Source: Lutibacter sp. (GTDB taxonomy: Bacteria > Bacteroidota > Bacteroidia > Flavobacteriales > Flavobacteriaceae). From it: DNA of 64,000 nt. Location: assembly GCA_030683995.1 (NCBI GenBank), contig JAUXPH010000045.1:62001-126000 (forward strand). The letters are read 5' to 3'. Shown here piece by piece: positions 30,478 through 40,109 of this stretch. Under the pieces are notes generated by a model. That model did no database searches and had not been told where the DNA came from. It saw only the letters and a program-made list of their open reading frames with translations. How positions within the stretch are numbered: the first letter of the stretch is position 1; every line of letters begins with the position of its first letter. A program made the position numbers and the translations under genes.

Positions 30478-30514
30478 ATTCATCGATGAATAGTTGCAGC
30501 TCACCGACACTTAA
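30478..30514 (+). promoter_or_regulatory. Bipartite regulatory element, copy 1
   Basis: ATTCATC (30478-30484), 16 bp, then TCACCGACACTTAA (30501-30514). The same two blocks with the same 16-bp gap occur at 39374-39410, before the last subunit gene of this cluster. Within it, ATTCATCGA and GCTCACCGA form a direct repeat of 21-bp period, and ATTCATCGATGAAT is a perfect palindrome. A GATCTTTG box (30558-30565) follows 43 bp later. Confidence 0.75.
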
Positions 30515-30625: not shown

Positions 30626-31039
30626 ATGAGAAAAAGTCTGAACATTTTACTGGTTGAAGATGATATGATAGAAATTATGAAATTTAACAGAACAATTTCA
30701 AAATTGGCCTATCCTCACAAAATTGTTGAAGCTAAAAACGGGGAAGAAGCTTTGGATATTTTATATAAATACGAATCATTGCCCGATCTTATTTTGCTCG
30801 ACTTAAATATGCCAAAAATAAATGGCCTTGAATTTTTAAGCATCATCAGAAAAAATACTCAATTAAAATATATTCCAACGGTTATTTTAACTTCATCCAA
30901 CGACCATAAAGATGTTTCTGAATGTCACCAACTTGGCATTGCCGGTTATTTGGTAAAGCCTTTAAAATTTGCCGATTATTCGGAATCAATTAAAACGGTT
31001 TTGGATTATTGGTGTTTTAATGAGTTTGTACAAGCTTAA
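30626..31039 (+). CDS. Single-domain response regulator (CheY-like)
   Basis: A 137-residue stand-alone receiver domain. The acidic pocket EDD is at 11-13, the phosphoacceptor is Asp59 in LILLDLNMPKING, the Thr/Ser switch lies in VILTSSN and the conserved Lys in GYLVKPL. It has no output domain, so it must act by protein contact or phosphotransfer. The kinase gene overlaps its stop codon by 1 bp (TAATG), a strong sign they work together. It is the first gene of the surface-subunit cluster, behind a regulatory element shared with the last subunit gene. Confidence 0.93.
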   Translation: MRKSLNILLVEDDMIEIMKFNRTISKLAYPHKIVEAKNGEEALDILYKYESLPDLILLDLNMPKINGLEFLSIIRKNTQLKYIPTVILTSSNDHKDVSECHQLGIAGYLVKPLKFADYSESIKTVLDYWCFNEFVQA

Positions 31040-31764
31040 TGCCGAACATTATGCATCAAAAAGAGCAATTACTTTTAAAATTAAAAAATCAAAATGAGCA
31101 GTTAAATGACTACGCCCATTTGGTTTCACACGATTTAAAATCATCTTTAAGAAGTCTTTCCGCTTTGTTAAGCTGGGTAAAAGAAGATTGCAGTGAAAAA
31201 ATTGGAGAAGAAAGTATTTGCAATTTGAACTTGATGGAGGAGAAAATTGAAAAGATGGATAAATTTCTGGAAGACATCATCAATTACTCCGAAATTGGCG
31301 GAACAAGCCTAAAAACAAACACGATAGATCTTAATATAAAGGTGAATAAAATTATAAAAAGCCTTGATATTCCTAAAAACATTAACATTGTCATTAATGG
31401 CAAATTGCCTGTTTTAAAAGCCGATCCAAGAAGATTGCGCCAGGTTTTTCAGAATTTAATTAGCAATGCAGTTAACTTTAATGATAAAGAAGCTGGTTTG
31501 GTTGAAATTGGGGTTGAAGAAACTGAAGGTTTTTATACTTTTTCAATAAAAGACAATGGCCAGGGAATTCCGAAGGAATACCACGAAAAAATATTTAACA
31601 CCTTTACCACACTTGGTTATCACGAAAAATCTACCGGAATGGGACTTTCCATCGTTAAAAGAGTTTTGGACCTTTATAGCGGTGAAATTTGGCTGGAAAG
31701 TGAAGTTTTAAAAGGAAGCACTTTTTATTTTACGTTGCCAAAAAATAAAGAGAATGAAGTCTAA
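31039..31764 (+). CDS. Soluble histidine kinase without sensor domain
   Basis: 241 residues: a short coiled coil (KEQLLLKLKNQNEQLNDYA), a HisKA domain with phospho-His31 in HLVSHDLKSSLRSL, and a HATPase domain with N box FQNLISNAVNFND, G1 DNGQGIP and G2 TGMGLSIVKRVL. There is no transmembrane segment, PAS or GAF domain. Its signal must come from a partner, probably the CheY-like protein whose gene overlaps by 1 bp. The H-box type (HDLKSSLR) is that of phytochrome-like and related kinases. A second ATG nine bases downstream is possible. Confidence 0.92.
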   Translation: MPNIMHQKEQLLLKLKNQNEQLNDYAHLVSHDLKSSLRSLSALLSWVKEDCSEKIGEESICNLNLMEEKIEKMDKFLEDIINYSEIGGTSLKTNTIDLNIKVNKIIKSLDIPKNINIVINGKLPVLKADPRRLRQVFQNLISNAVNFNDKEAGLVEIGVEETEGFYTFSIKDNGQGIPKEYHEKIFNTFTTLGYHEKSTGMGLSIVKRVLDLYSGEIWLESEVLKGSTFYFTLPKNKENEV

Positions 31765-31795
31765 AATATTAAACTTTAATAAAGCATAAAAAGGG

Positions 31796-31803
31796 TATAT
31801 TTG
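31796..31803 (+). promoter_or_regulatory. -7 promoter box upstream of the LytTR gene
   Basis: TATATTTG is an exact TAnnTTTG match, 116 bp before the ATG at 31920. TTTA at 31775-31778 is a possible weak -33 element. It gives the LytTR gene its own promoter. Confidence 0.55.
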
Positions 31804-31919
31804 CAGTTGGAAACCGCTTACAAATATTTTATAATTCGTAGGGAAATTATAACTTTAATTAGCATTTGTTAATTTTCACTGTGATTGTTAAATAATTGAA
31901 ATCATTAAAAATCAACCCT

Positions 31920-32636
31920 ATGAACTGTATCAGCATTGATGATGAAGAAATAGCAAGAGTTATTGTTGAAAAGTTAATTTCGAATAATAAAAACTTAAAT
32001 CTTGTTGCCAGTTTCAACAGCCCAATTGAAGCGCTAAAATATTTAAATCAAAACAATGTTGACCTTATTTTTTTAGACATTCATATGCCGGCTTTTTCAG
32101 GTTTTGATTTGTTGCAAACATTAAAAAATCCGCCTAAAGTAATATTAACAAGTTCTCATGCAAATTTTGCATTGGAGGCCTTTGAATACAATTGCGTAGT
32201 TGATTATTTGGAAAAACCTATGACTCAAGTGCGATTTGACAAAGCCGTTGACAAAGCCAAATTGGTTTCCAACACCACAATACAGAATATAGAATTGCCG
32301 GCAACGCCAATCAACGGAGATACAAAAAGCGATTTGTATGTAAACATTTTCAAACGCCTTGTGAAAATTAGTTTTGAGAGCATTAATTTAATTGAAGCAA
32401 AAGGCGATTATATTTTGATTAAAACCGATAAGGAAAATTACACAGTGCATTCAACCCTAAAAAAAATAGAAGACAAATTGCCCGAAACAATTTTTTTGAA
32501 AGTCCACCGGTCATTTATCATCAACATTAAAAAAATTATTGATATTGAAGACAGCAGTGTGTTAATTGGAAAAAATGTTGTTCCGGTAAGCAGGTCGAGC
32601 AAACCTGAATTGATGAAACAGCTTAATTTGCTGTAA
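31920..32636 (+). CDS. LytTR-family response regulator
   Basis: A DNA-binding response regulator of 238 residues from the ATG at 31920; an upstream TTG would add eight. Receiver domain 1-120 with Asp53 (LIFLDIHMPAFSG), acidic DDE at 7-9 and Lys in DYLEKPM. A linker leads to a LytTR domain (about 132-236: KISFESINLIEAKGDYILI, LPETIFLKVHRSFIINIKKI, VVPVSRSSKPELM). LytTR proteins usually bind pairs of direct repeats about 21 bp apart. Such repeats occur upstream of genes at 38418 and, more degenerately, 39531 and 30626, which makes this the likely activator of the cluster. Its signal likely comes from the nearby kinase. Confidence 0.93.
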   Translation: MNCISIDDEEIARVIVEKLISNNKNLNLVASFNSPIEALKYLNQNNVDLIFLDIHMPAFSGFDLLQTLKNPPKVILTSSHANFALEAFEYNCVVDYLEKPMTQVRFDKAVDKAKLVSNTTIQNIELPATPINGDTKSDLYVNIFKRLVKISFESINLIEAKGDYILIKTDKENYTVHSTLKKIEDKLPETIFLKVHRSFIINIKKIIDIEDSSVLIGKNVVPVSRSSKPELMKQLNLL

Positions 32637-32687
32637 ATTTAAATCGACTTTAAACCCTAATTTATTCATAACATAAATTTTTAAAAA

Positions 32688-33470
32688 ATGAAAAAATCCA
32701 TACTGTTTCTTTTATTGGTTTTAAGTTTTCAGTTCTCCAATGCAGGTGTGGTGATACTTAATGGCTTAACCCACGTGCACCAATCGGCATCCGGACAATT
32801 GGTCACCGGAATTATTAAGATGAAAAACACCGATGCAACAGAGCAGCGCGTTATTATTTATTTTAATGATTTGTTTCAGGAATGCGGCAAAGAAACGGTT
32901 TTAACGGCCGATTTATCGCATAAGAATTCCATCAAAAATTGGTTGACAACCAATGTAAATGAACACGTTTTTAAGGCAAATGAAGAATATGAACTTATTT
33001 ACACTATCAATGTGCCTAATGATGTTGATATTAACGGTTCTTTTTGGGGTGTTTTAATGGTTGAAATTGAAAAACCGATTAAAGAAGATGAACTGGAGTT
33101 TGGCGTAAAACTGGAATCGAAAGTAAGATACGGAATTCAAATTATTGCCGATATTAATGAAAGAACGCCTTCTGAACTTGAATTTTACGACATCAAAATT
33201 GAAGAACCGGACGGAAATAAATTTATAAATGTTGATTTAAAAAATTTAGGCACCTTTTATGTGGAACCTACTTTAATTCTTGAAGTGTTTAATGCCAATG
33301 GCTTTTTGGAAAAAAAGGTGGAAGTGAAATTTAAAAAAGTGTATCCAAATTCTTGTAAAGCATTTTCGTTGGATATTTCGGGCTTGCCAAAAGGAGCTTA
33401 CACTTCGGTTTTGGTTGCCGATTATGGCAAAAATATTTATTCCATCGATTTAGAATTTGAAAATAAATAA
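32688..33470 (+). CDS. Exported two-Ig-like-domain protein, chaperone-like
   Basis: 260 residues: signal peptide (about 1-19, ending SNA), then two beta-sandwich domains. Domain 1 (about 20-150) runs GVVILNGLTHVHQSASGQLV, MKNTDATEQRVIIYFND and ends GSFWGVLMVEIEKP, KVRYGIQIIADI. Domain 2 (about 158-258) contains ELEFYDIKIEEPDGNKFINVDLKNLG and GLPKGAYTSVLVADYG. The layout resembles periplasmic pilus chaperones and the WxL-interacting/COG1470 group, but no known family is certain. It lies directly before the usher-like barrel, the usual chaperone position. Function as subunit chaperone is inferred from fold pattern and gene order. Confidence 0.6.
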   Translation: MKKSILFLLLVLSFQFSNAGVVILNGLTHVHQSASGQLVTGIIKMKNTDATEQRVIIYFNDLFQECGKETVLTADLSHKNSIKNWLTTNVNEHVFKANEEYELIYTINVPNDVDINGSFWGVLMVEIEKPIKEDELEFGVKLESKVRYGIQIIADINERTPSELEFYDIKIEEPDGNKFINVDLKNLGTFYVEPTLILEVFNANGFLEKKVEVKFKKVYPNSCKAFSLDISGLPKGAYTSVLVADYGKNIYSIDLEFENK

Positions 33471-33520
33471 AGTGAAAATAAAGTAACCCTAAAAAAATCT
33501 GTTTTATTTTCAGTATTCAT

Positions 33521-36247
33521 TTGAGAAATTACCCGGAAATATCAATTTTAACTCATTTTTTTCTTTTTTTATTGATGTTTCTGTCAATATCAAAAGTGGA
33601 TGCACAAAACAGTGCCGTTGAAATTTCTGCAAAAAATATTCCTGAAAATTTAGTTCCCGGAAAAAATTATACCATTGCTTTTGAAATTTCAAATACAACG
33701 GGAAATCAGCTCAATTTAAGCAGTGAATTTGTGGTTTCCGATGCGTTTTATTTAACAACTAACATAAAAAAGGTGGATGTTGCCGCAAATAATAAAAAAA
33801 TTGTGCTGTTTACTTTTGGCGTTAACAACCATAGCGTTGCCGGCGAGTATAAAGTGTTGCTGAAAATTACCAATCAAACTAACAATTTGCCTATTGCTTC
33901 TCAGGAAATAACGCTAAAGGTTTCTAAATTATACAATTTAACGGTGGAGGTATTAAACGCCCCGGAATATTTGCGTCTTGAAAAGGAATATCACGTTGAG
34001 TATTTGGTGACAAATAATGGGAACAGTGAAGAGAAAATAACTTTTGAATCGAGCAATATGCTTAAAATAGTGCCTTTAAACGCTTTATTGAAACCCGATT
34101 CATCAATGGTTGTTGCTGTTTATCAAAAAGTGCCGGAAAATGTACGCAACAAAACAATGGTTTTAAATAACCTAAAAGCCTATATGGTTTCAAATGATTT
34201 GCTGTTTTCAAATCGCGCGGCCATTACACTTTACCCAAACAACACCAAAAAACCCGATTTGTACCACCGGTTTCCGGTTACCGTATCCACTATTTTTAAT
34301 TCGTTAAAAGGATTGGATACTTTAAATGTATTTAAATTTAAGGTGAGCGGTCAGGGTTATTTGGACAGAGCCAACGAACATTATTTAAATTTTGAATATT
34401 CAGGTCCGAGCCAGAGCGATATTTTACGATTTGGTGATTATGAACGATACAGTGTTTTTTACAAAAACAAAAAATTGGAGGCTGTTGCAGGTCACGTAAA
34501 TTTTTCGCTTTCCAATATTACGGAAACATCGCGCTACGGAACGGGCGGAATTTTAAGCTATGATTTTGGAAAAACCACCACAACGTTGTTTTATGTAAAA
34601 CCAAGGTTCACCAAACAAATATCCGACTCGTATGGCGGTAAAATTTCGCAGGAATTATCAGATAAAGCCTATGTTGAAGCAGGATTTATCAACAGAACCC
34701 TTTTTGAAAATTATGAAGAATTCAATTCCAAAATTTTTAACATCGCTTCTTTTTACACCATTGACCGATTTAAAATCAACGGAGAAATTGCCTACGAAAC
34801 CAATTATAAAACAAACGGACTTGCGTATTCTTTGGAAGCCTATTTAAATTTGAAAAAATGGGATTTTATCAATTCTGCACAATATTCCGATAAAGATTAT
34901 AAGGGTTATATAAGAAACAGCAAACAATGGTTGTCGCTGGCAAATTACCGATTTAACGATAAAATTGATATGCAAATTGGGGCGGAGTATCGCGCTATTA
35001 ATCCGGTTAAAGACACCATTAATTACAGTTCGTCTCCAATAACCACAAAGTATCAGGCGTATTTTAATTACAACATCAACAGAAATAATAAAGTTAGGGC
35101 AGGAGGTTATTACCGAAATAAAGAAGACCAGTTGGGTATACAGACCTACAATTTTGAGGAAAAGTTGGCGACGCTTTCATTTTATAGCCGAATGCCTTTT
35201 AAATACGATTTAATGTGGCAAAACCGCATGGGAAAAACCATCAATTTTTTGGCGAACAGCACGGAGCCTCAAAGCACGTTTTTCAGTTCTTTGAGTGTTA
35301 CCGGATATATTTTTAAAAATTTAATTCTGGGCTTAAATGGTGATTACCAGCAAAGCAACAAACAATCTGTTGATAATACAGTGCAAAAAACGTTTTATTA
35401 TGGCGGAAATTTACAATACAATTTAAAATCGGATTTAAACCTGAATGTATTTTACAAGAAGAATTACGATTTTGATGAGTTGGATGAGTCCCAAAATTAT
35501 TTGCAGGCGCAGTTAAATTACAACTATCAAAGGAGACATTTGTTAAGCGTTTCTGTTTCACAAATGAGTTTGCCGGTATTTCCCATCCAAAAAGAACTTT
35601 TAATCACGGCATCTTACAGTTTGGTGATGAACGTGCCGGTTTCAAAAAATAAAACGGTTGGCTCATTAATCGGTAAAATTACTTCCGATGAAAAAGTTAA
35701 TTTAGAAGGCATTCTTGTGTTGTTGGATGAGCAAATTGCCATCACCAACGAAAAAGGCGTTTTTCATTTTTACAATTTACAGCCCAAAACCTATCGTTTG
35801 TACGTGAAACAATCGAGTTTGCCAAAAAATAAAATTATTGTGATGCAACAGCCAATCGACATCGATATTGTCCCAAATAAAGAAACCGAAGTGGTACTTG
35901 AAATGGGAAATACAGGCACTTTATTTGGGCAAGTTATTTTTGAAGAAACAACGGTGATGCAATCTTCGCAATTCATCAAAAAATTGCCTATTTTGGTAGT
36001 GAAAATAACCAAGGAAGATAAAACCTCTTATACCAAAACCGACAAAGACGGTAAATTTTGGTTCAAAGAGCTAACGCCGGGAGATTGGACCGTGGAGCTG
36101 GTTGTAAAAAATTTATTGAACGATTTCACTTTTAGCGAAACGCAAAAAACCATTTCTATCAAATCCGATAAAGAAGAGAAGGCTGTTTTTAAAGCGACCA
36201 ATAAAAACAGGGAGGTTAAAAAAAGCGATAAAATATTTAAATTATGA
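33521..36247 (+). CDS. Large outer-membrane barrel with Ig-like and regulatory-like domains (usher-like by context)
   Basis: 908 residues from a TTG start. The only nearby ATG would truncate the signal peptide (about 1-28, ending VDAQ), so TTG is preferred. Two Ig-like domains (about 30-245) contain ENLVPGKNYTIAFEISN and EYLRLEKEYHVEYLVTNNG. A beta-barrel of about 450 residues follows, with alternating aromatics (HYLNFEYSG, TTTLFYVKPRFTKQ, KVRAGGYYRNKEDQLG). Two carboxypeptidase-regulatory-like domains end it (SLIGKITSDEKVNLEGILVLLD; LFGQVIFEE to DGKFWFKEL). Barrel plus periplasmic beta domains is the logic of an usher, but the sequence is not the classical family. Its stop overlaps the first subunit gene (ATGA). 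Confidence 0.6.
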   Translation: MRNYPEISILTHFFLFLLMFLSISKVDAQNSAVEISAKNIPENLVPGKNYTIAFEISNTTGNQLNLSSEFVVSDAFYLTTNIKKVDVAANNKKIVLFTFGVNNHSVAGEYKVLLKITNQTNNLPIASQEITLKVSKLYNLTVEVLNAPEYLRLEKEYHVEYLVTNNGNSEEKITFESSNMLKIVPLNALLKPDSSMVVAVYQKVPENVRNKTMVLNNLKAYMVSNDLLFSNRAAITLYPNNTKKPDLYHRFPVTVSTIFNSLKGLDTLNVFKFKVSGQGYLDRANEHYLNFEYSGPSQSDILRFGDYERYSVFYKNKKLEAVAGHVNFSLSNITETSRYGTGGILSYDFGKTTTTLFYVKPRFTKQISDSYGGKISQELSDKAYVEAGFINRTLFENYEEFNSKIFNIASFYTIDRFKINGEIAYETNYKTNGLAYSLEAYLNLKKWDFINSAQYSDKDYKGYIRNSKQWLSLANYRFNDKIDMQIGAEYRAINPVKDTINYSSSPITTKYQAYFNYNINRNNKVRAGGYYRNKEDQLGIQTYNFEEKLATLSFYSRMPFKYDLMWQNRMGKTINFLANSTEPQSTFFSSLSVTGYIFKNLILGLNGDYQQSNKQSVDNTVQKTFYYGGNLQYNLKSDLNLNVFYKKNYDFDELDESQNYLQAQLNYNYQRRHLLSVSVSQMSLPVFPIQKELLITASYSLVMNVPVSKNKTVGSLIGKITSDEKVNLEGILVLLDEQIAITNEKGVFHFYNLQPKTYRLYVKQSSLPKNKIIVMQQPIDIDIVPNKETEVVLEMGNTGTLFGQVIFEETTVMQSSQFIKKLPILVVKITKEDKTSYTKTDKDGKFWFKELTPGDWTVELVVKNLLNDFTFSETQKTISIKSDKEEKAVFKATNKNREVKKSDKIFKL

Positions 36248-36780
36248 AAAAACTAATTTACATTATTTGCGGTTTGTGCGCAATTTCGAGTTTTGGCCAA
36301 AGTCAAGGCTCTGCAAACGCTACATTTAACCTGTCTCAAGTGGCAATGTTGGATTTGGAGCCGGATAATTCAACGGTAACACTAAGTTTAGCGACCAATG
36401 AAGCCGGCGAAAAGGCGGCAATGGTGACTGCAAACAATAAAAAATGGCTTAATTTTTCATCTGCTGTTTCAAGCACGGCGTCTGCCAGAAGTATTTCTGT
36501 TAAAATTGATGGCGGTCAAGTGCCTTCAGGCATTTATTTAAAACTAAGCACTTCAAATGTTATGGGTATTGGTCAAGGAGTCTTAGGTTCGCCTGTGGGA
36601 ATTTTGACTTTAAGCAGCGCGCCACAAACAATTATCTCGAACATCAGAGGCGCATATACTGGTGATGGCATTGGTAACGGTTATGAGCTTACCTATTATT
36701 TGGAAATTTTCGATTACAAATTATTGGATTTTAACCAATCCGCAACCTTGACCATCACTTTAACTTTATCCGATCTATAA
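36244..36780 (+). CDS. Small secreted subunit-like protein A
   Basis: 178 residues with signal peptide (about 1-19, ending SFGQ). The mature part is beta-rich: ATFNLSQVAMLDLEPDNSTVTLSL, KKWLNFSSA, ARSISVKIDGGQVPSGIYLKL, ISNIRGAYTGDGIGNGYELTYYL, and the closing strand ATLTITLTLSDL. The same blocks in the same order occur in the proteins at 38418 and 39531, so the three form a family. Size and closing strand resemble fimbrial subunits. There are no T9SS or sortase signals. It overlaps the barrel gene by 4 bp and the next gene by 1 bp, so all are translationally coupled. Confidence 0.65.
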   Translation: MKKLIYIICGLCAISSFGQSQGSANATFNLSQVAMLDLEPDNSTVTLSLATNEAGEKAAMVTANNKKWLNFSSAVSSTASARSISVKIDGGQVPSGIYLKLSTSNVMGIGQGVLGSPVGILTLSSAPQTIISNIRGAYTGDGIGNGYELTYYLEIFDYKLLDFNQSATLTITLTLSDL

Positions 36781-37253
36781 TGAAAAACTTAACAACCTTA
36801 ATTGCCTTTTTAGCGATTTCAAATATGGTGATTGGTCAAGGCATTGAACTTACAGTTACAGGAAATTGGGCAAAAAACATTGCTGCATCAGATATCAATG
36901 AAGCGGGGAATGACTATCCAGCCTCTTATGCTAGCAATATCAATCAAACTTTATTAACGATAAACCCAAAAAATTGGAACAAAATAATAACTGTTTTTGT
37001 TAAGAGAAACGACATTGCTTGGAATGCTAATTTGAACCTTAAAGTTAAACGCACCTCAAATGGCACCAATGGCAATACCAATATTGCTGGTGGTTTAAGT
37101 TATCAGACAATTACAAACATTGACGCTAACTTTTTTACTTGTGCAGGTTATCATACATTTATTCCATTACAATATGAAATTACCGGTATTAGTGTTGTGT
37201 TGCCGGTACAAAGTTATTCAACCGAAATTATGTACACAGTGATACAGTTATAA
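36780..37253 (+). CDS. Small secreted protein, possible adaptor or tip subunit
   Basis: 157 residues with signal peptide (about 1-19, ending VIGQ). The mature chain is beta-rich and Asn-rich: GIELTVTGNWAKNIAASDINEAGNDY, LTINPKNWNKIITVFVKRND, LNLKVKRTSNG, and the final strand YSTEIMYTVIQL. It is not clearly paralogous to the subunits at 36244, 38418 and 39531, but it is about the same size and sits inside their operon with a 1-bp overlap. A minor subunit (adaptor, initiator or terminator) is plausible. Function is inferred only from position. Confidence 0.5.
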   Translation: MKNLTTLIAFLAISNMVIGQGIELTVTGNWAKNIAASDINEAGNDYPASYASNINQTLLTINPKNWNKIITVFVKRNDIAWNANLNLKVKRTSNGTNGNTNIAGGLSYQTITNIDANFFTCAGYHTFIPLQYEITGISVVLPVQSYSTEIMYTVIQL

Positions 37254-37314
37254 CAACATTATGGTGGTCAAAAGAAATCACAATTAAAAAACAACATCAT
37301 TAAAACCCAAAGTA

Positions 37315-37953
37315 ATGCCCATAAAAATACTTTTTATTGAAGAAAATGCTATAAAACAAGAAGCCTTAAAATTGTGCCTAAGTGAAAATGCAGGCATCCA
37401 ATTTGATATTTTAAACGATTTTAATGCGCTGGAAGCTTCTTTAAGTTCTGAATCTTATTCGCATTTGGTGGCTCAATCTATAGTTAAAAATGGGTCTATT
37501 TTGGCTTTTACGCACTTAATCCAGTTGCCTTTGTTAATTATAAGCGATAATGGGTTGGATTTATCAGAGACTTCTTATGCAATTACCAAATCGCCTTTAA
37601 GTTATGCAGCATTGTTTGATTTTTTGGTGCAAAGCACGCCCATTTCTTATGCCGGAATTGAGGAATATGCGATGGATGATGAAGAATTTTTAGAGCAAAT
37701 AAAAGCATTAATGGTTGACGAATTTCAAAATAATTTGGAGGAAATTCCGGTATTGATTGAAACCAATAATTTATCGGAATTAAAAAGCAGGGCGCACCAA
37801 ATGAGCAGCAAATTTGCGATGTTGGATTTGCCCCAGTCAGCGCTTTTATCCAAAGAAATAGACGTCCATATTTTAAATGATGCCGAAAAGCAAATCAAAA
37901 ATATGAAAATATTGTTGGTTGACTTAGAAATTGCTTTGGAGCATCTGCAATAA
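37315..37953 (+). CDS. Pseudo-receiver plus Hpt phosphotransfer protein
   Basis: 212 residues. Residues 1-108 follow the receiver fold (KILFIEENAIKQEALKL; LVAQSIV; LPLLIISDN; AITKSPLSYAALFDFL) but the phosphoacceptor Asp is missing: the matching position is Gln54, while the acidic pair (Glu9-Glu10) and Lys92 remain. Residues of about 120-212 are helical with His161 in SELKSRAHQMSSKFAML, the pattern of Hpt phosphotransfer domains. It would pass phosphoryl groups to a true receiver, such as the CheY-like or LytTR proteins nearby. It closes the main operon, 61 bp after the small secreted protein. Confidence 0.7.
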   Translation: MPIKILFIEENAIKQEALKLCLSENAGIQFDILNDFNALEASLSSESYSHLVAQSIVKNGSILAFTHLIQLPLLIISDNGLDLSETSYAITKSPLSYAALFDFLVQSTPISYAGIEEYAMDDEEFLEQIKALMVDEFQNNLEEIPVLIETNNLSELKSRAHQMSSKFAMLDLPQSALLSKEIDVHILNDAEKQIKNMKILLVDLEIALEHLQ

Positions 37954-38252
37954 GACAGCAATTTTATCCTAACATTGAATTTTATCATTTAAATCGCGTT
38001 TTTTTTAGAAAATGCTTCTTTCACTTTGTTCCAAAGTTTCTGGAAGACCATAATTATATCTTTTTAAAATTCTTTCTTCCCATTTCTTCATCAAAATAAA
38101 AAGTTTTGAAGACGTACTATTTTTTTAACCTGTCGTAAATTTTTCAAAATAAAATTCTTAACTTTAAGTAAATAAAAGCCATTTTACGAGCTTTTAATTA
38201 TTTTTCATCCACTGAAAAAACGTTGTGATAAAATATAAATGGCACTCAAAAA
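37954..38252. other. AT-rich intergenic stretch, no convincing gene
   Basis: 464 bp separate the Hpt gene from the next subunit gene. The first 300 bp hold only very short frames on the minus strand (20 and 28 codons), with no support beyond plausible codons. The last part holds the regulatory repeats and promoter listed separately. Confidence 0.6.
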
Positions 38253-38335
38253 ACAACAAATGGTATATATTTTACAACAAATGGTAAAATAGTTCGTTTT
38301 TTTCATTGCTTAATGGTTTTTTGTTTGTACCTTTA
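38253..38335 (+). promoter_or_regulatory. 21-bp-phased direct repeat and promoter of subunit gene B
   Basis: ACAACAAATGGTA occurs at 38253-38265 and 38274-38286, start to start exactly 21 bp, the spacing of LytTR binding sites. The reverse strand of each copy contains ACCATTTGT, which fits eight of nine positions of the usual LytTR consensus as I recall it. The promoter follows: TTG (38306-38308), 19 bp, TACCTTTA (38328-38335). Confidence 0.65.
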
Positions 38336-38417
38336 GAATAGATCTAAATAGTGCAATTAACTTTTTAGTTACACAAAAATAAAAACCTATAAATGCGTTA
38401 CCTATTAAGCAAAAAAA

Positions 38418-38984
38418 ATGACCACAACCTACAAAAATATAGCCCTGTTCTTATTTTTATTAGTGTTTGGCAATTTATGCGCTCAAGTCAATCAAGGCAG
38501 CCACAAAATAAATTTATCAATACCTGAAGTTGCCTTAATCAATGTATATTCAAACGATAACATCAACTTGGGAAACACTTCTGTTATTGAAGCCGGTCAA
38601 GCCATAAATATGGAAGACACCAACAGCGTTTGGATCAATTATTCTTCCATTATAGGTTCTCCATCACAACCAGGGCGTGATATCAGCATTCGCATTTCTG
38701 AAGGCAGCATTCCTGACGGCGTAAAACTTTACGTTAAAGTGGCGAAAGATATGGGCGCCGGTACCGGAGAAATGGGAAAACCGATCAGCACCACACAAGA
38801 GCTCACCGAAAATCCTCTTACCATTATCACCGATATTGGAAGCGCTTATACCGGTGCAGGTGCCAATAAAGGCAACAATGTGCAATATACCCTAAAACTT
38901 AGCGATGAACCAAATGCTTATGCCAAATTGGATTCCAACCAAAGCAATACCTTGGTGATCAACTACACGCTAACCGACAATTAA
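38418..38984 (+). CDS. Small secreted subunit-like protein B
   Basis: 188 residues with signal peptide (about 1-22, ending LCAQ). Its blocks match the family: SHKINLSIPEVALINVYS, VWINYSSIIG, GRDISIRISEGSIPDGVKLYVKV, IITDIGSAYTGAGANKGNNVQYTL, and closing strand NTLVINYTLTDN. It is closest to the protein at 39531 (shared INYSS and IGSxxTGxGxNKG). It has its own promoter with phased repeats upstream and a likely terminator, so its level can be set apart from the main operon. This suggests a major or alternative structural subunit. Confidence 0.65.
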   Translation: MTTTYKNIALFLFLLVFGNLCAQVNQGSHKINLSIPEVALINVYSNDNINLGNTSVIEAGQAINMEDTNSVWINYSSIIGSPSQPGRDISIRISEGSIPDGVKLYVKVAKDMGAGTGEMGKPISTTQELTENPLTIITDIGSAYTGAGANKGNNVQYTLKLSDEPNAYAKLDSNQSNTLVINYTLTDN

Positions 38985-39005
38985 TACATTTTACATTCCC
39001 AAATA

Positions 39006-39056
39006 GAAAAAGACACTATGCCTAATGATAATTTTTAGGGTGGTGTTTTTCTTTTT
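39006..39056 (+). terminator. Possible terminator after subunit gene B
   Basis: AAAAAGACAC pairs imperfectly with GTGTTTTTC across an inner CCTA/TAGG stem and is followed by a T-rich run. It lies 22 bp after the stop at 38984. The stem is imperfect. Confidence 0.5.
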
Positions 39057-39060
39057 TGTT

Positions 39061-39108
39061 CCCTTCGACTTTGCTTCGGCTCCGCTCAGCAGCCACGCTC
39101 AGGGTGAC
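39061..39108. repeat. CTTCGACT/GCTCAG dispersed repeat
   Basis: GC-rich sequence with CCCTTCGACT, TTGCTTCGGCTCCGCTCAGC and CAGGGTGACA. Related pieces recur at 59985-60008 and, as coding DNA, at 63611-63670. No gene is carried. Confidence 0.7.
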
Positions 39109-39114
39109 AAATTG

Positions 39115-39170
39115 TTGATACGTTTATACGTTGATATGTTGATACGTTGATGCGTTGATATGTTGAATTG
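39115..39170. repeat. Seven tandem 8-bp units (TTGATACG type)
   Basis: Units run head to tail: TTGATACG, TTTATACG, TTGATATG, TTGATACG, TTGATGCG, TTGATATG, TTGAATTG. They directly follow the CTTCGACT repeat. A related degenerate array (GTTTAATC units) precedes a CCCTTCGATT sequence at 59731-59775. Confidence 0.8.
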
Positions 39171-39373
39171 TTTCACATAAAAATCACTTTGGCCTTTAAT
39201 CTTGTTGTTTTTCTACAATTACCCAACAAACAATTCAAATCTCTCAACCACCGTATTACCCTGAGTCGATGGCTATGCTTAACCGCGAATAAAACTTCTA
39301 ATATTTAATAGCTAACTTTTAATATCCTACACGATCTTCTCTCAATTCTTCCTTTCTATCTGCCGTTAAATGT

Positions 39374-39410
39374 ATTCATCTTAAGAATCCTACCGTTCAC
39401 CGACACTTAA
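39374..39410 (+). promoter_or_regulatory. Bipartite regulatory element, copy 2
   Basis: ATTCATC (39374-39380), 16 bp, TCACCGACACTTAA (39397-39410): identical blocks and gap to 30478-30514. ATTCATC and GTTCACC repeat with a 21-bp period. It ends 44 bp before the -7 box at 39455, against 43 bp in copy 1. Confidence 0.75.
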
Positions 39411-39454
39411 CGTTTACCTGCCTAATTTTTGAATTTTAAACTTTGATGCTAACG

Positions 39455-39462
39455 TACATTTG
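39455..39462 (+). promoter_or_regulatory. -7 promoter box of subunit gene C
   Basis: TACATTTG, exact TAnnTTTG match. The predicted leader of about 60 nt is almost free of G and rich in A, the kind of unstructured leader seen before highly translated Bacteroidota genes. Confidence 0.7.
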
Positions 39463-39530
39463 TACCATCAATAAGAAATAACAAAACAAAAAATAAATAA
39501 CAAAACAAACAATTTAAAAAACAAAACCTC

Positions 39531-40109
39531 ATGAACTTAAACAAATTATTTTTCGCCGCTGTAATCGTTTTATCTGCCAATGCTTCTTTCGCGCAAGATA
39601 CTAATGAAGCTTCTCATTTATTAACCATTAGTATTCCACAAGTTGCTTTATTAGATCTTGAAGCGGCATCAACAACTATTACTTTGGCTGCTACTGTACC
39701 AGCACTTGCTGAAGCTGGTTTGCCAATAACATTTGGTGCAGCTGCAACCAACTCAACCATTTGGATGAATTATTCTTCTATTGTTAAAGGTGCATTGGTA
39801 AGAAAAGTGACTGTTGCAATCACTAACGGTGCTGTTCCAGACGGATTAAAATTAACAGTACTTGCTTCTGCAGCTTCTGCAGATGGCGCGGGCACAAAAG
39901 GTACTGCTGCAACTGCGATTACTTTAACAAATACTGCATCAGATATTGTTACAGGAATTGGAAGCACTTGGACAGGAGACGGAGTGAACAAAGGCCGTAA
40001 TTTAACTTACCAACTTGATTATGCTGGTACTGAAACAGACTATGCTGATTTAAGATTTGTTGATATAGCTGCTCCACTAACAATTACATACACACTTTCA
40101 GATATTTAA
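39531..40109 (+). CDS. Small secreted subunit-like protein C, probably abundant
   Basis: 192 residues with signal peptide (about 1-21, ending SFAQ). Family blocks: HLLTISIPQVALLDLE, IWMNYSSIVKG, VRKVTVAITNGAVPDGLKLTVLAS, IVTGIGSTWTGDGVNKGRNLTYQLDY, and closing strand PLTITYTLSDI. It is unusually Ala/Thr-rich and uses more GCT, GCA and ACT codons than its paralogues, with an open A-rich leader, a consensus -7 box and a strong terminator. These suggest high expression, as for a main structural subunit. It forms a single-gene unit with the regulatory element shared with 30626. Confidence 0.68.
   Translation: MNLNKLFFAAVIVLSANASFAQDTNEASHLLTISIPQVALLDLEAASTTITLAATVPALAEAGLPITFGAAATNSTIWMNYSSIVKGALVRKVTVAITNGAVPDGLKLTVLASAASADGAGTKGTAATAITLTNTASDIVTGIGSTWTGDGVNKGRNLTYQLDYAGTETDYADLRFVDIAAPLTITYTLSDI

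Follow-up and report, generated by a model that had tools for sequence, protein, structure and literature searches.

The operon and its conservation

We analysed a 64,000-nucleotide stretch of a Lutibacter sp. contig (JAUXPH010000045.1, positions 62,001 to 126,000 of the forward strand; hereafter the window), in which an earlier note, made from the sequence alone, had proposed an undescribed surface-subunit system on a chaperone-usher-like plan between positions 30626 and 40109. All ten open reading frames (ORFs) of this layout were found as described, including the overlaps of 4 and 1 base pairs (bp) between successive genes. The core is a conserved, real operon (32688-37253) of chaperone-usher-like kind, which encodes a WxLIP-type chaperone with two immunoglobulin-like (Ig) domains, a plugless usher-like barrel and secreted subunits. 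The genes for its exported proteins, together with two further subunit genes downstream, are the following.

32688..33470, + strand: WxLIP/DUF916-type exported protein with two Ig domains, 260 amino acids (aa), proposed periplasmic chaperone (from profile and Foldseek searches)
33521..36247, + strand: usher-like outer-membrane barrel, 908 aa, TTG start (from an AlphaFold2 model and Foldseek)
36244..36780, + strand: secreted subunit A, 178 aa; 4-bp overlap with the barrel gene; member of family alignment A3
36780..37253, + strand: secreted subunit B, 157 aa, possible end subunit; 1-bp overlap with the subunit A gene
38418..38984, + strand: secreted subunit C, 188 aa; A3 family, no Pfam match
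39531..40109, + strand: secreted subunit D, 192 aa, perhaps the major subunit (from A3 family membership and gene orders)

Among the exported proteins, Pfam gave matches over the cut-off only in the C-terminal domain pair of the 908-aa protein, and an NCBIfam scan gave none for any of them. PapD, Usher and pilin families had no match in the window; the earlier note had remarked that these sequences look unlike the classical FimC/FimD or Csu families, and by Pfam we rejected membership of the classical FimC/FimD family. Fimbriae of type V (FimA-like) and substrates of type IX secretion were also rejected, their Pfam families having no match in the window or in A3.

The conservation of gene order was assessed in a named scan of 159 stretches with 104 relatives, of which the best 80 were kept (the 80 named loci). 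The barrel gene was on the same strand in 77 of these, the remaining three stopping at contig ends; it lay immediately 3' of the chaperone gene in 76, and was itself immediately followed by a subunit gene in 72. A subunit gene stood ahead of the chaperone-barrel pair, directly or with one gene between, in 64 of the 80, and in many loci other than the window's a D-like gene lies just 5' of the chaperone gene. The core common to the neighbourhoods thus reads [subunit]-chaperone-barrel-subunit A-subunit B. The reading proposed earlier had been made to depend on the genes staying together in related genomes, which they do (77/80 for the barrel gene), and this retention in relatives makes the locus more than a chance arrangement.

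The nearest relatives of the window among the named loci are titled Lutibacter, and 49 of the 80 are titled Chryseobacterium. Further genera in the titles are Leeuwenhoekiella, Maribacter, Arenibacter, Owenweeksia, Mariniflexile, Arcicella and Emticicia. In one Emticicia contig (L151), subunit-chaperone-barrel is present twice in tandem. Relatives of the 908-aa protein were found in 20 of 80 related genomes, the remotest at 22-29% identity, and the chaperone profile (A2) matched 19/295 genomes of the class and 53/395 of the order. The order of genes, whose conservation across Flavobacteriia the earlier note had proposed to check, is kept in these relatives, and related systems reach beyond Flavobacteriia. 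Plasmid carriage of the window barrel was rejected, as a tblastn search of the plasmid collection with this protein gave zero matches.

Proposed chaperone, subunits and barrel

Judged by profile and Pfam searches, the window "chaperone" is a relative of the WxLIP (DUF916-DUF3324) proteins of Gram-positive WxL clusters. When A2 was searched against 177,635 sequences of the PDB, the top two matches were EfmWxLIP1 (9i25, by its title a WxLIP-WxL complex, and 9i1y; E-value 9e-7 over 207 profile positions), the next match coming at 0.23, while single window proteins retrieved nothing useful from the same set. With Pfam at E-values up to 1, WxLIP_HBD (PF11797) was found in 8/13 A2 members (best 7e-9) and WxLIP_PGBD (PF06030) in 2/13 (best 1.2e-4), followed more weakly by DUF2141 (5/13, best 0.0023) and Por_Secre_tail (5/13, best 0.012). 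The window protein does not have both WxLIP domains over the cut-off, scoring 16.3 bits against 28.9 for PF11797. Among the four type II or Deinococcus relatives scanned (see below), the PF06030 cut-off of 27.3 bits was passed by L064 (38.6) and L066 (28.1), L074 and L079 staying under it. Comparison of profiles with hhalign supported homology to WxLIP over both Ig domains (95.3% and 96.8%).

The same kinship appeared at the level of fold. A model of the homologous chaperone of locus L100, folded together with its subunit (see below) and taken to be matched through its chaperone half, retrieved WxLIP at Foldseek ranks 1-3 (E-values 1e-13 to 6e-13) and a peptidase fibril at rank 4. CsuC, YadV, FimC and, lower down, CfaA followed among many chaperones (E-values from 2e-9), with some ciliary or centrosomal Ig proteins interspersed. 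A two-Ig chaperone fold of the PapD/FimC kind was thus recovered behind WxLIP and one peptidase. The chaperone-like role proposed in the earlier note was supported, the protein itself being now assigned to the WxLIP/DUF916 type. Type II chaperones further aligned with the FimC-family profile of Escherichia coli at 92.8% over 197 collinear columns; with reversed columns the value fell to 1.3%, and none of 20 column shuffles scored above 19.4, the actual alignment scoring 53.8.

A hairpin strand of WxLIP is predicted to lie parallel in the gap of WxL, completing its sandwich, and the similarity of the second WxLIP domain to pilins has been remarked; in the text of that paper the words pilus, chaperone, usher and donor strand do not occur (PMC10599100). 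By our own comparison, this predicted WxLIP-WxL geometry would be that of donor-strand complementation.

The small secreted proteins fit the role of subunits that had been suggested for them. A, C and D are paralogues (A3), and B is a distant relative of these three (hhalign of the SubI and SubB profiles, 95.3%). A and B are naturally fused in loci L124 and L203, an indication that the two come together in the product. By eye, the subunits carry ordinary signal peptides ending ahead of a conserved Q, after which comes a strictly alternating hydrophobic N-terminal stretch. Among 128 distinct windows drawn from 262 subunit ORFs (the others were repeats, lay too close to an end or escaped the anchor pattern), positions -4 and -2 were hydrophobic in fractions of 0.99 and 1.00, and positions -3 and -1 in 0.14 and 0.05; many of these windows come from one genus, and position 0 as well as some downstream positions are fixed by the anchor. 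Such an alternating hydrophobic N-terminal extension, as carried by the subunits of chaperone-usher systems, is what a donor strand needs. No Pfam match over the cut-off, to a pilin or otherwise, was found in the window subunits or the A3 members, and the WxL domain (PF13731) matched none of them (hhalign, 0.1-1.2%).

An usher is a barrel of about 24 strands with an N-terminal domain, a plug and two C-terminal domains. The AlphaFold2 model of the 908-aa protein (44 alignment rows; mean predicted local distance difference test, pLDDT, 85.9; predicted template modelling score, pTM, 0.61) comprises two N-terminal Ig-like domains (residues ~31-240), 26 strand segments (248-709) and two C-terminal sandwich domains (714-894), in agreement with the barrel announced by the earlier note. 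Searched with Foldseek against 350,542 PDB chains, the model ranked FimD at positions 1-9 and PapC at 11-12 (E-values 7.6e-16 to 3e-11). Rank 10 and several later matches were ciliary Ig arrays, and 4q35_A ("membrane protein", 4e-9), an LptDE chain (2.5e-8) and other barrels (around 1e-7) came later. In the model, the barrel is therefore usher-like in domain order and fold ranking. We observed besides that its N-terminal Ig pair (residues 1-240) aligns with chaperone profiles, at 96.1% over 186 columns for type II and 95.4% over 76 columns for type I; by sequence it may be a chaperone-like module, generic Ig similarity being another possible explanation.

Wider relatives and the proposed assembly pathway

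Related gene sets were recovered well outside the Lutibacter type. The type II set consists of a chaperone, secreted proteins of ~260 and ~205 aa and a barrel of ~1000 aa; hhalign between types I and II gave 99.94% over 832 columns for the barrel and 99.87% for the chaperone. Two Deinococcus plasmids carry, in this order, a subunit, a DUF916-like protein, a subunit and a barrel-like protein of ~1010-1060 aa, which align with type I at 98.9% (chaperone) and 92.8% over 338 columns (barrel); the barrel-like protein of the Deinococcus-type set L079 has no PF00577 match. Archaic chaperone-usher systems were already known in Deinococcus-Thermus according to the introduction of a 2015 structural paper, which places chaperone-usher pathways in proteobacteria, Cyanobacteria and Deinococcus-Thermus and whose main text holds no word beginning with Bacteroid- (PMC4654587).

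Across the sample of the phylum, A14, a chaperone profile, matched 80/395 genomes and A15, a barrel profile, 65/395, many of the weaker A15 matches spanning only the common C-terminal domains. None of the 395 genomes had a PF00577 match over the cut-off. The four matches below it all belong to group III (family f98) and to a gene adjoining an A14 chaperone; hmmscan of these four barrels again found PF00577 in two (E-values 2.2e-4 and 3.2e-4) and not in the other two. PapD_N occurred below the cut-off in 3/7 of the group III-V chaperones scanned (E-values 0.002-0.046), and DUF4402 in 4/4 of the group III-IV subunits scanned (E-values up to 0.1), one of them over the cut-off (30.7 against 25.2 bits). 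The chaperones of group III give 98.95% over 242 columns against chaperone I, and 42% over 131 columns against the FimC family. The barrel link between I and III is weak, because barrel III aligns with barrel II mainly in its C-terminal part (92%, 182 columns) and with barrel I in 73 columns only (60.7%).

Some variants deserve mention. The group III barrels of L223, L224, L226 and L229 carry at least one SPOR domain after the barrel, over the Pfam cut-off; SPOR domains are peptidoglycan-binding. In group IV (family f92), L228 and L234 encode in the same order two secreted proteins, a chaperone homologue and a protein of 897 or 894 aa; the one secreted protein scanned is a weak DUF4402 match, and the barrel profile matches the L228 protein only. 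A second barrel type of 1025-1388 aa was seen in L036, L037, L061 and L131, and in the first three a cysteine at the end of the signal stretch suggests a lipoprotein. In L070 and L072, chaperone homologues lie near an 852-aa protein without a barrel-profile match, possibly another type of partner.

The locus shares with the Fim, Pap and Csu pili the presence in one operon of a chaperone, a barrel and several subunits of 150-190 aa, as well as the two-Ig chaperone fold, the succession of a barrel and two C-terminal sandwiches with FimD and PapC as best-ranked folds, and the alternating N-terminal stretch of the subunits. It differs from them by the lack of PapD, Usher or pilin matches in Pfam, by a plugless barrel preceded by two Ig-like domains, and by a chaperone that is nearest to WxLIP. 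With the WxL/WxLIP clusters of Lactobacillales and Bacillales it has in common that a protein of the DUF916-DUF3324 type accompanies small secreted beta proteins, whereas it occurs in diderms with an outer-membrane barrel and its subunits lack a WxL profile match. DUF4402 proteins (PF14352) are matched by the subunits of the group III-IV relatives but not by the window subunits or the A3 members.

We consider it likely that the locus encodes a highly divergent pathway of the chaperone-usher type, whose mechanism we infer as follows. The subunits would leave the cytoplasm by their ordinary signal peptides, and in the periplasm the WxLIP-type protein would cap their incomplete sandwich, probably by lending a strand at its long hairpin, as suggested by the published WxLIP-WxL prediction and the FimC-like position. 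The complex might then dock on the N-terminal Ig domains or the C-terminal sandwich domains of the barrel, where the alternating N-terminal stretch of one subunit would take the place of the strand lent by the chaperone to the next. What grows outward would be a linear fibre or a short chain on the surface, C and D possibly forming the shaft with A-B at one end. Of the fibre or secreted-subunit pathway envisaged in the earlier note, the chaperone-, usher- and subunit-like roles and the gene order are thus supported, the mechanism and the fibre themselves staying at the level of this proposal.

Several results weigh against this reading. Successive barrel strands are at most 14 residues apart, so that no plug is inserted in the barrel, as it would be in an usher. 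TM-scores of the model to ushers are low (0.22-0.39), other barrels score similarly and 6r2q_B reaches 0.44; for this reason the barrel is called usher-like, from its domain order and ranking, rather than an usher. The window barrel has no match to Pfam Usher (PF00577). With hhalign, it aligns with E. coli ushers at 6%, against 5.7% for a control (a 1043-aa protein of L039, taken to be SusC-like), though the score, 35.0 over 312 collinear columns, is above the ~23 obtained with the reversed profile and with 10 shuffles. Chaperone I aligns with the FimC family at 2.9%, the pooled chaperones at 17.6% and a four-sequence WxLIP profile at 0.6%, which makes the sequence link between chaperone and FimC a tentative one. 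To the same WxLIP profile, the Deinococcus chaperone gives 0.2% and that of group V 0.5%. These low values are compatible with kinship, because known relatives score low in the same set-up (E. coli chaperones against EcpB, 2.5%; ushers against EcpC, 3.6%). Finally, the subunits align with E. coli pilins over 22 columns only, their profile has no useful match to the WxL profile, and its search of PDB sequences returned a single unrelated match.

Strand donation was probed in a model of the L100 subunit and chaperone, folded as a single chain by read-through of both intervening stops (alignment A13, with 94 rows of which 30 are copies; rows are unpaired and one or two stray residues were left in its 30 chaperone rows). 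The fold (pLDDT 80.3, pTM 0.51) has beta strands throughout both proteins and none at the chaperone hairpin (335-353) or at subunit residues 1-16, as judged by strand assignment alone. A lack of strand exchange in predicted complexes was among the outcomes that the earlier note had named as telling against it; we weigh this one complex-like fold as mildly against strand donation and as a weak test, because the 57-residue linker holds a signal peptide and 30 of the 94 rows are copies. The absence of an inserted strand would also agree with a WxL-like surface platform, a stable complex of the two-Ig protein with the small beta proteins that is anchored on the barrel, with neither chaperoning nor polymer. 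In keeping with it, the nearest relative of the chaperone among characterised proteins is WxLIP, which is described as located at the surface and binding WxL (PMC10599100). We regard such a platform as unlikely: by eye, the homologues have no C-terminal membrane helix like the one reported for WxLIP, the fold matches include many donor-strand chaperones, and several paralogues with an alternating N-terminus plus an usher-like barrel exceed what a platform needs.

Still less probable is that the barrel is a porin, a receptor or another conduit, served by the small proteins as periplasmic or surface accessory subunits. The TM-score of the electron-conduit barrel 6r2q_B, higher than that of FimD, would fit this view, as would the missing plug and the lack of a sequence link between the window clade and ushers, but the whole-chain ranking puts ushers at 1-9 and 11-12, and group III has weak Pfam Usher matches at the same gene position, two of the four being confirmed on rescanning. 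To date, the barrel has not resolved to an unrelated known transporter, an outcome that would have told against the earlier note, FimD and PapC being best-ranked with the reservation of their TM-scores. Type IX secretion of the subunits, with a barrel that merely anchors or caps, is common enough a route in Bacteroidota to be considered (reported in 60/97 Bacteroidetes genomes, PMC4793230) and appears very improbable, as no sorting domain matched the four window subunits or 25 A3 members (12 A4 members, the window's own excepted, were left out of the scan).

Retaining a highly divergent chaperone-usher-type pathway as the best reading, we found no description of it among the open-access papers that our searches listed (most subscription papers and all preprints fell outside their scope). 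The same literature yielded no paper joining the WxL domain and the donor strand, and none on DUF4402. A broader scheme, plausible and held with somewhat less than even conviction, is that DUF916/WxLIP proteins are donor-strand chaperones and that a single ancient machinery of chaperone and subunits has branched into chaperone-usher systems on one side and the WxL clusters of Gram-positive bacteria on the other, with a plugless usher barrel in diderm Bacteroidota and Deinococcus and none in monoderms; the window locus would then stand at one end of a chain leading via group III towards Fim and Csu. An usher-like operon of five genes that is conserved in Flavobacteriales and has related forms throughout the phylum would provide a defined assembly pathway open to testing. 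It would also point to a function for DUF916 and DUF4402 proteins beyond the Gram-positive bacteria, and might link the WxL surface system with the assembly of pili.

Regulatory genes and upstream DNA

Four accessory genes and several upstream elements complete the locus.

30501..30514, + strand: TCACCGACACTTAA box 5' of the receiver gene; box or close variant in 7/7 upstream regions
30626..31039, + strand: single-domain CheY-like receiver, accessory regulator (Pfam Response_reg, 81.2 bits)
31039..31764, + strand: histidine kinase without sensor, 241 aa, accessory (HATPase_c 97.5 bits, HisKA under the cut-off)
31896..32636, + strand: LytTR response regulator, accessory (LytTR 71.3 bits, Response_reg 60.6 bits)
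37315..37953, + strand: degenerate-receiver and Hpt-like protein, 212 aa, accessory (receiver part by eye; Hpt E-value 0.001, under the cut-off)
38235..38285, - strand: tandem ACCATTTGT-type repeats of 21-bp period 5' of subunit C, LytTR-like operator candidate
39397..39410, + strand: TCACCGACACTTAA box 5' of subunit D; box or close variant in 9/9 upstream regions
39455..39462, + strand: -7 type promoter box TACATTTG of subunit D, inside a pattern match at 39428-39462

The receiver, HATPase and LytTR domains were over the Pfam cut-off, as expected for the CheY-like regulator, sensorless kinase and LytTR regulator previously recognised. The pseudo-receiver-Hpt protein is less certain, its Hpt match (19.7 against 24.6 bits) being below the cut-off and its degenerate receiver seen by eye. 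In Lutibacter-type loci, the receiver gene is 5' of the core and the Hpt-like gene sits between the subunit B and C genes. Among the 80 named loci, 22 carry at least one relative of the receiver, kinase, LytTR or Hpt genes and 58 carry none (phmmer at 1e-15, flanks up to 6 kb). The phosphorelay genes are thus present at the window locus without belonging to the core of the system, which the earlier note had credited with a phosphorelay of its own. The LytTR regulator is a candidate regulator of the subunit genes, and the shared upstream boxes suggest that in the window's lineage a LytTR phosphorelay might tune them.

A 9-bp repeat occurs 5' of subunit C in 2-3 copies with an exact 21-bp period in 8/9 Lutibacter-type loci, its period and sequence being similar to those of LytTR operators. 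Positions 38256-38285 are the sole match without mismatch to the repeat pattern in the 64 kb; at up to three mismatches, six were found against 3.84 expected. The plain LytTR consensus pair showed no enrichment, with 24 occurrences in the window against 22.4 expected. The only two exact copies of the TCACCGACACTTAA box in the window precede the receiver gene and the gene for subunit D; with up to two mismatches there are three matches, a number reached in 5/100 shuffles. Both this box and the repeat pattern were chosen after the regions had been seen. An invertible promoter was rejected, the inverted repeats being short or imperfect.

Separate promoters had been proposed for the subunit C and D genes. 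The former (38418) has no TA[CT]ATTTG-type box within 300 bp upstream in the window and has the tandem repeat, and the full -33/-7 pattern showed no enrichment, occurring 6 times in the window against 9.5 expected. For subunit D (39531), a TA[CT]ATTTG box is conserved 68-76 bp 5' of the gene in 9/9 Lutibacter-type loci examined.

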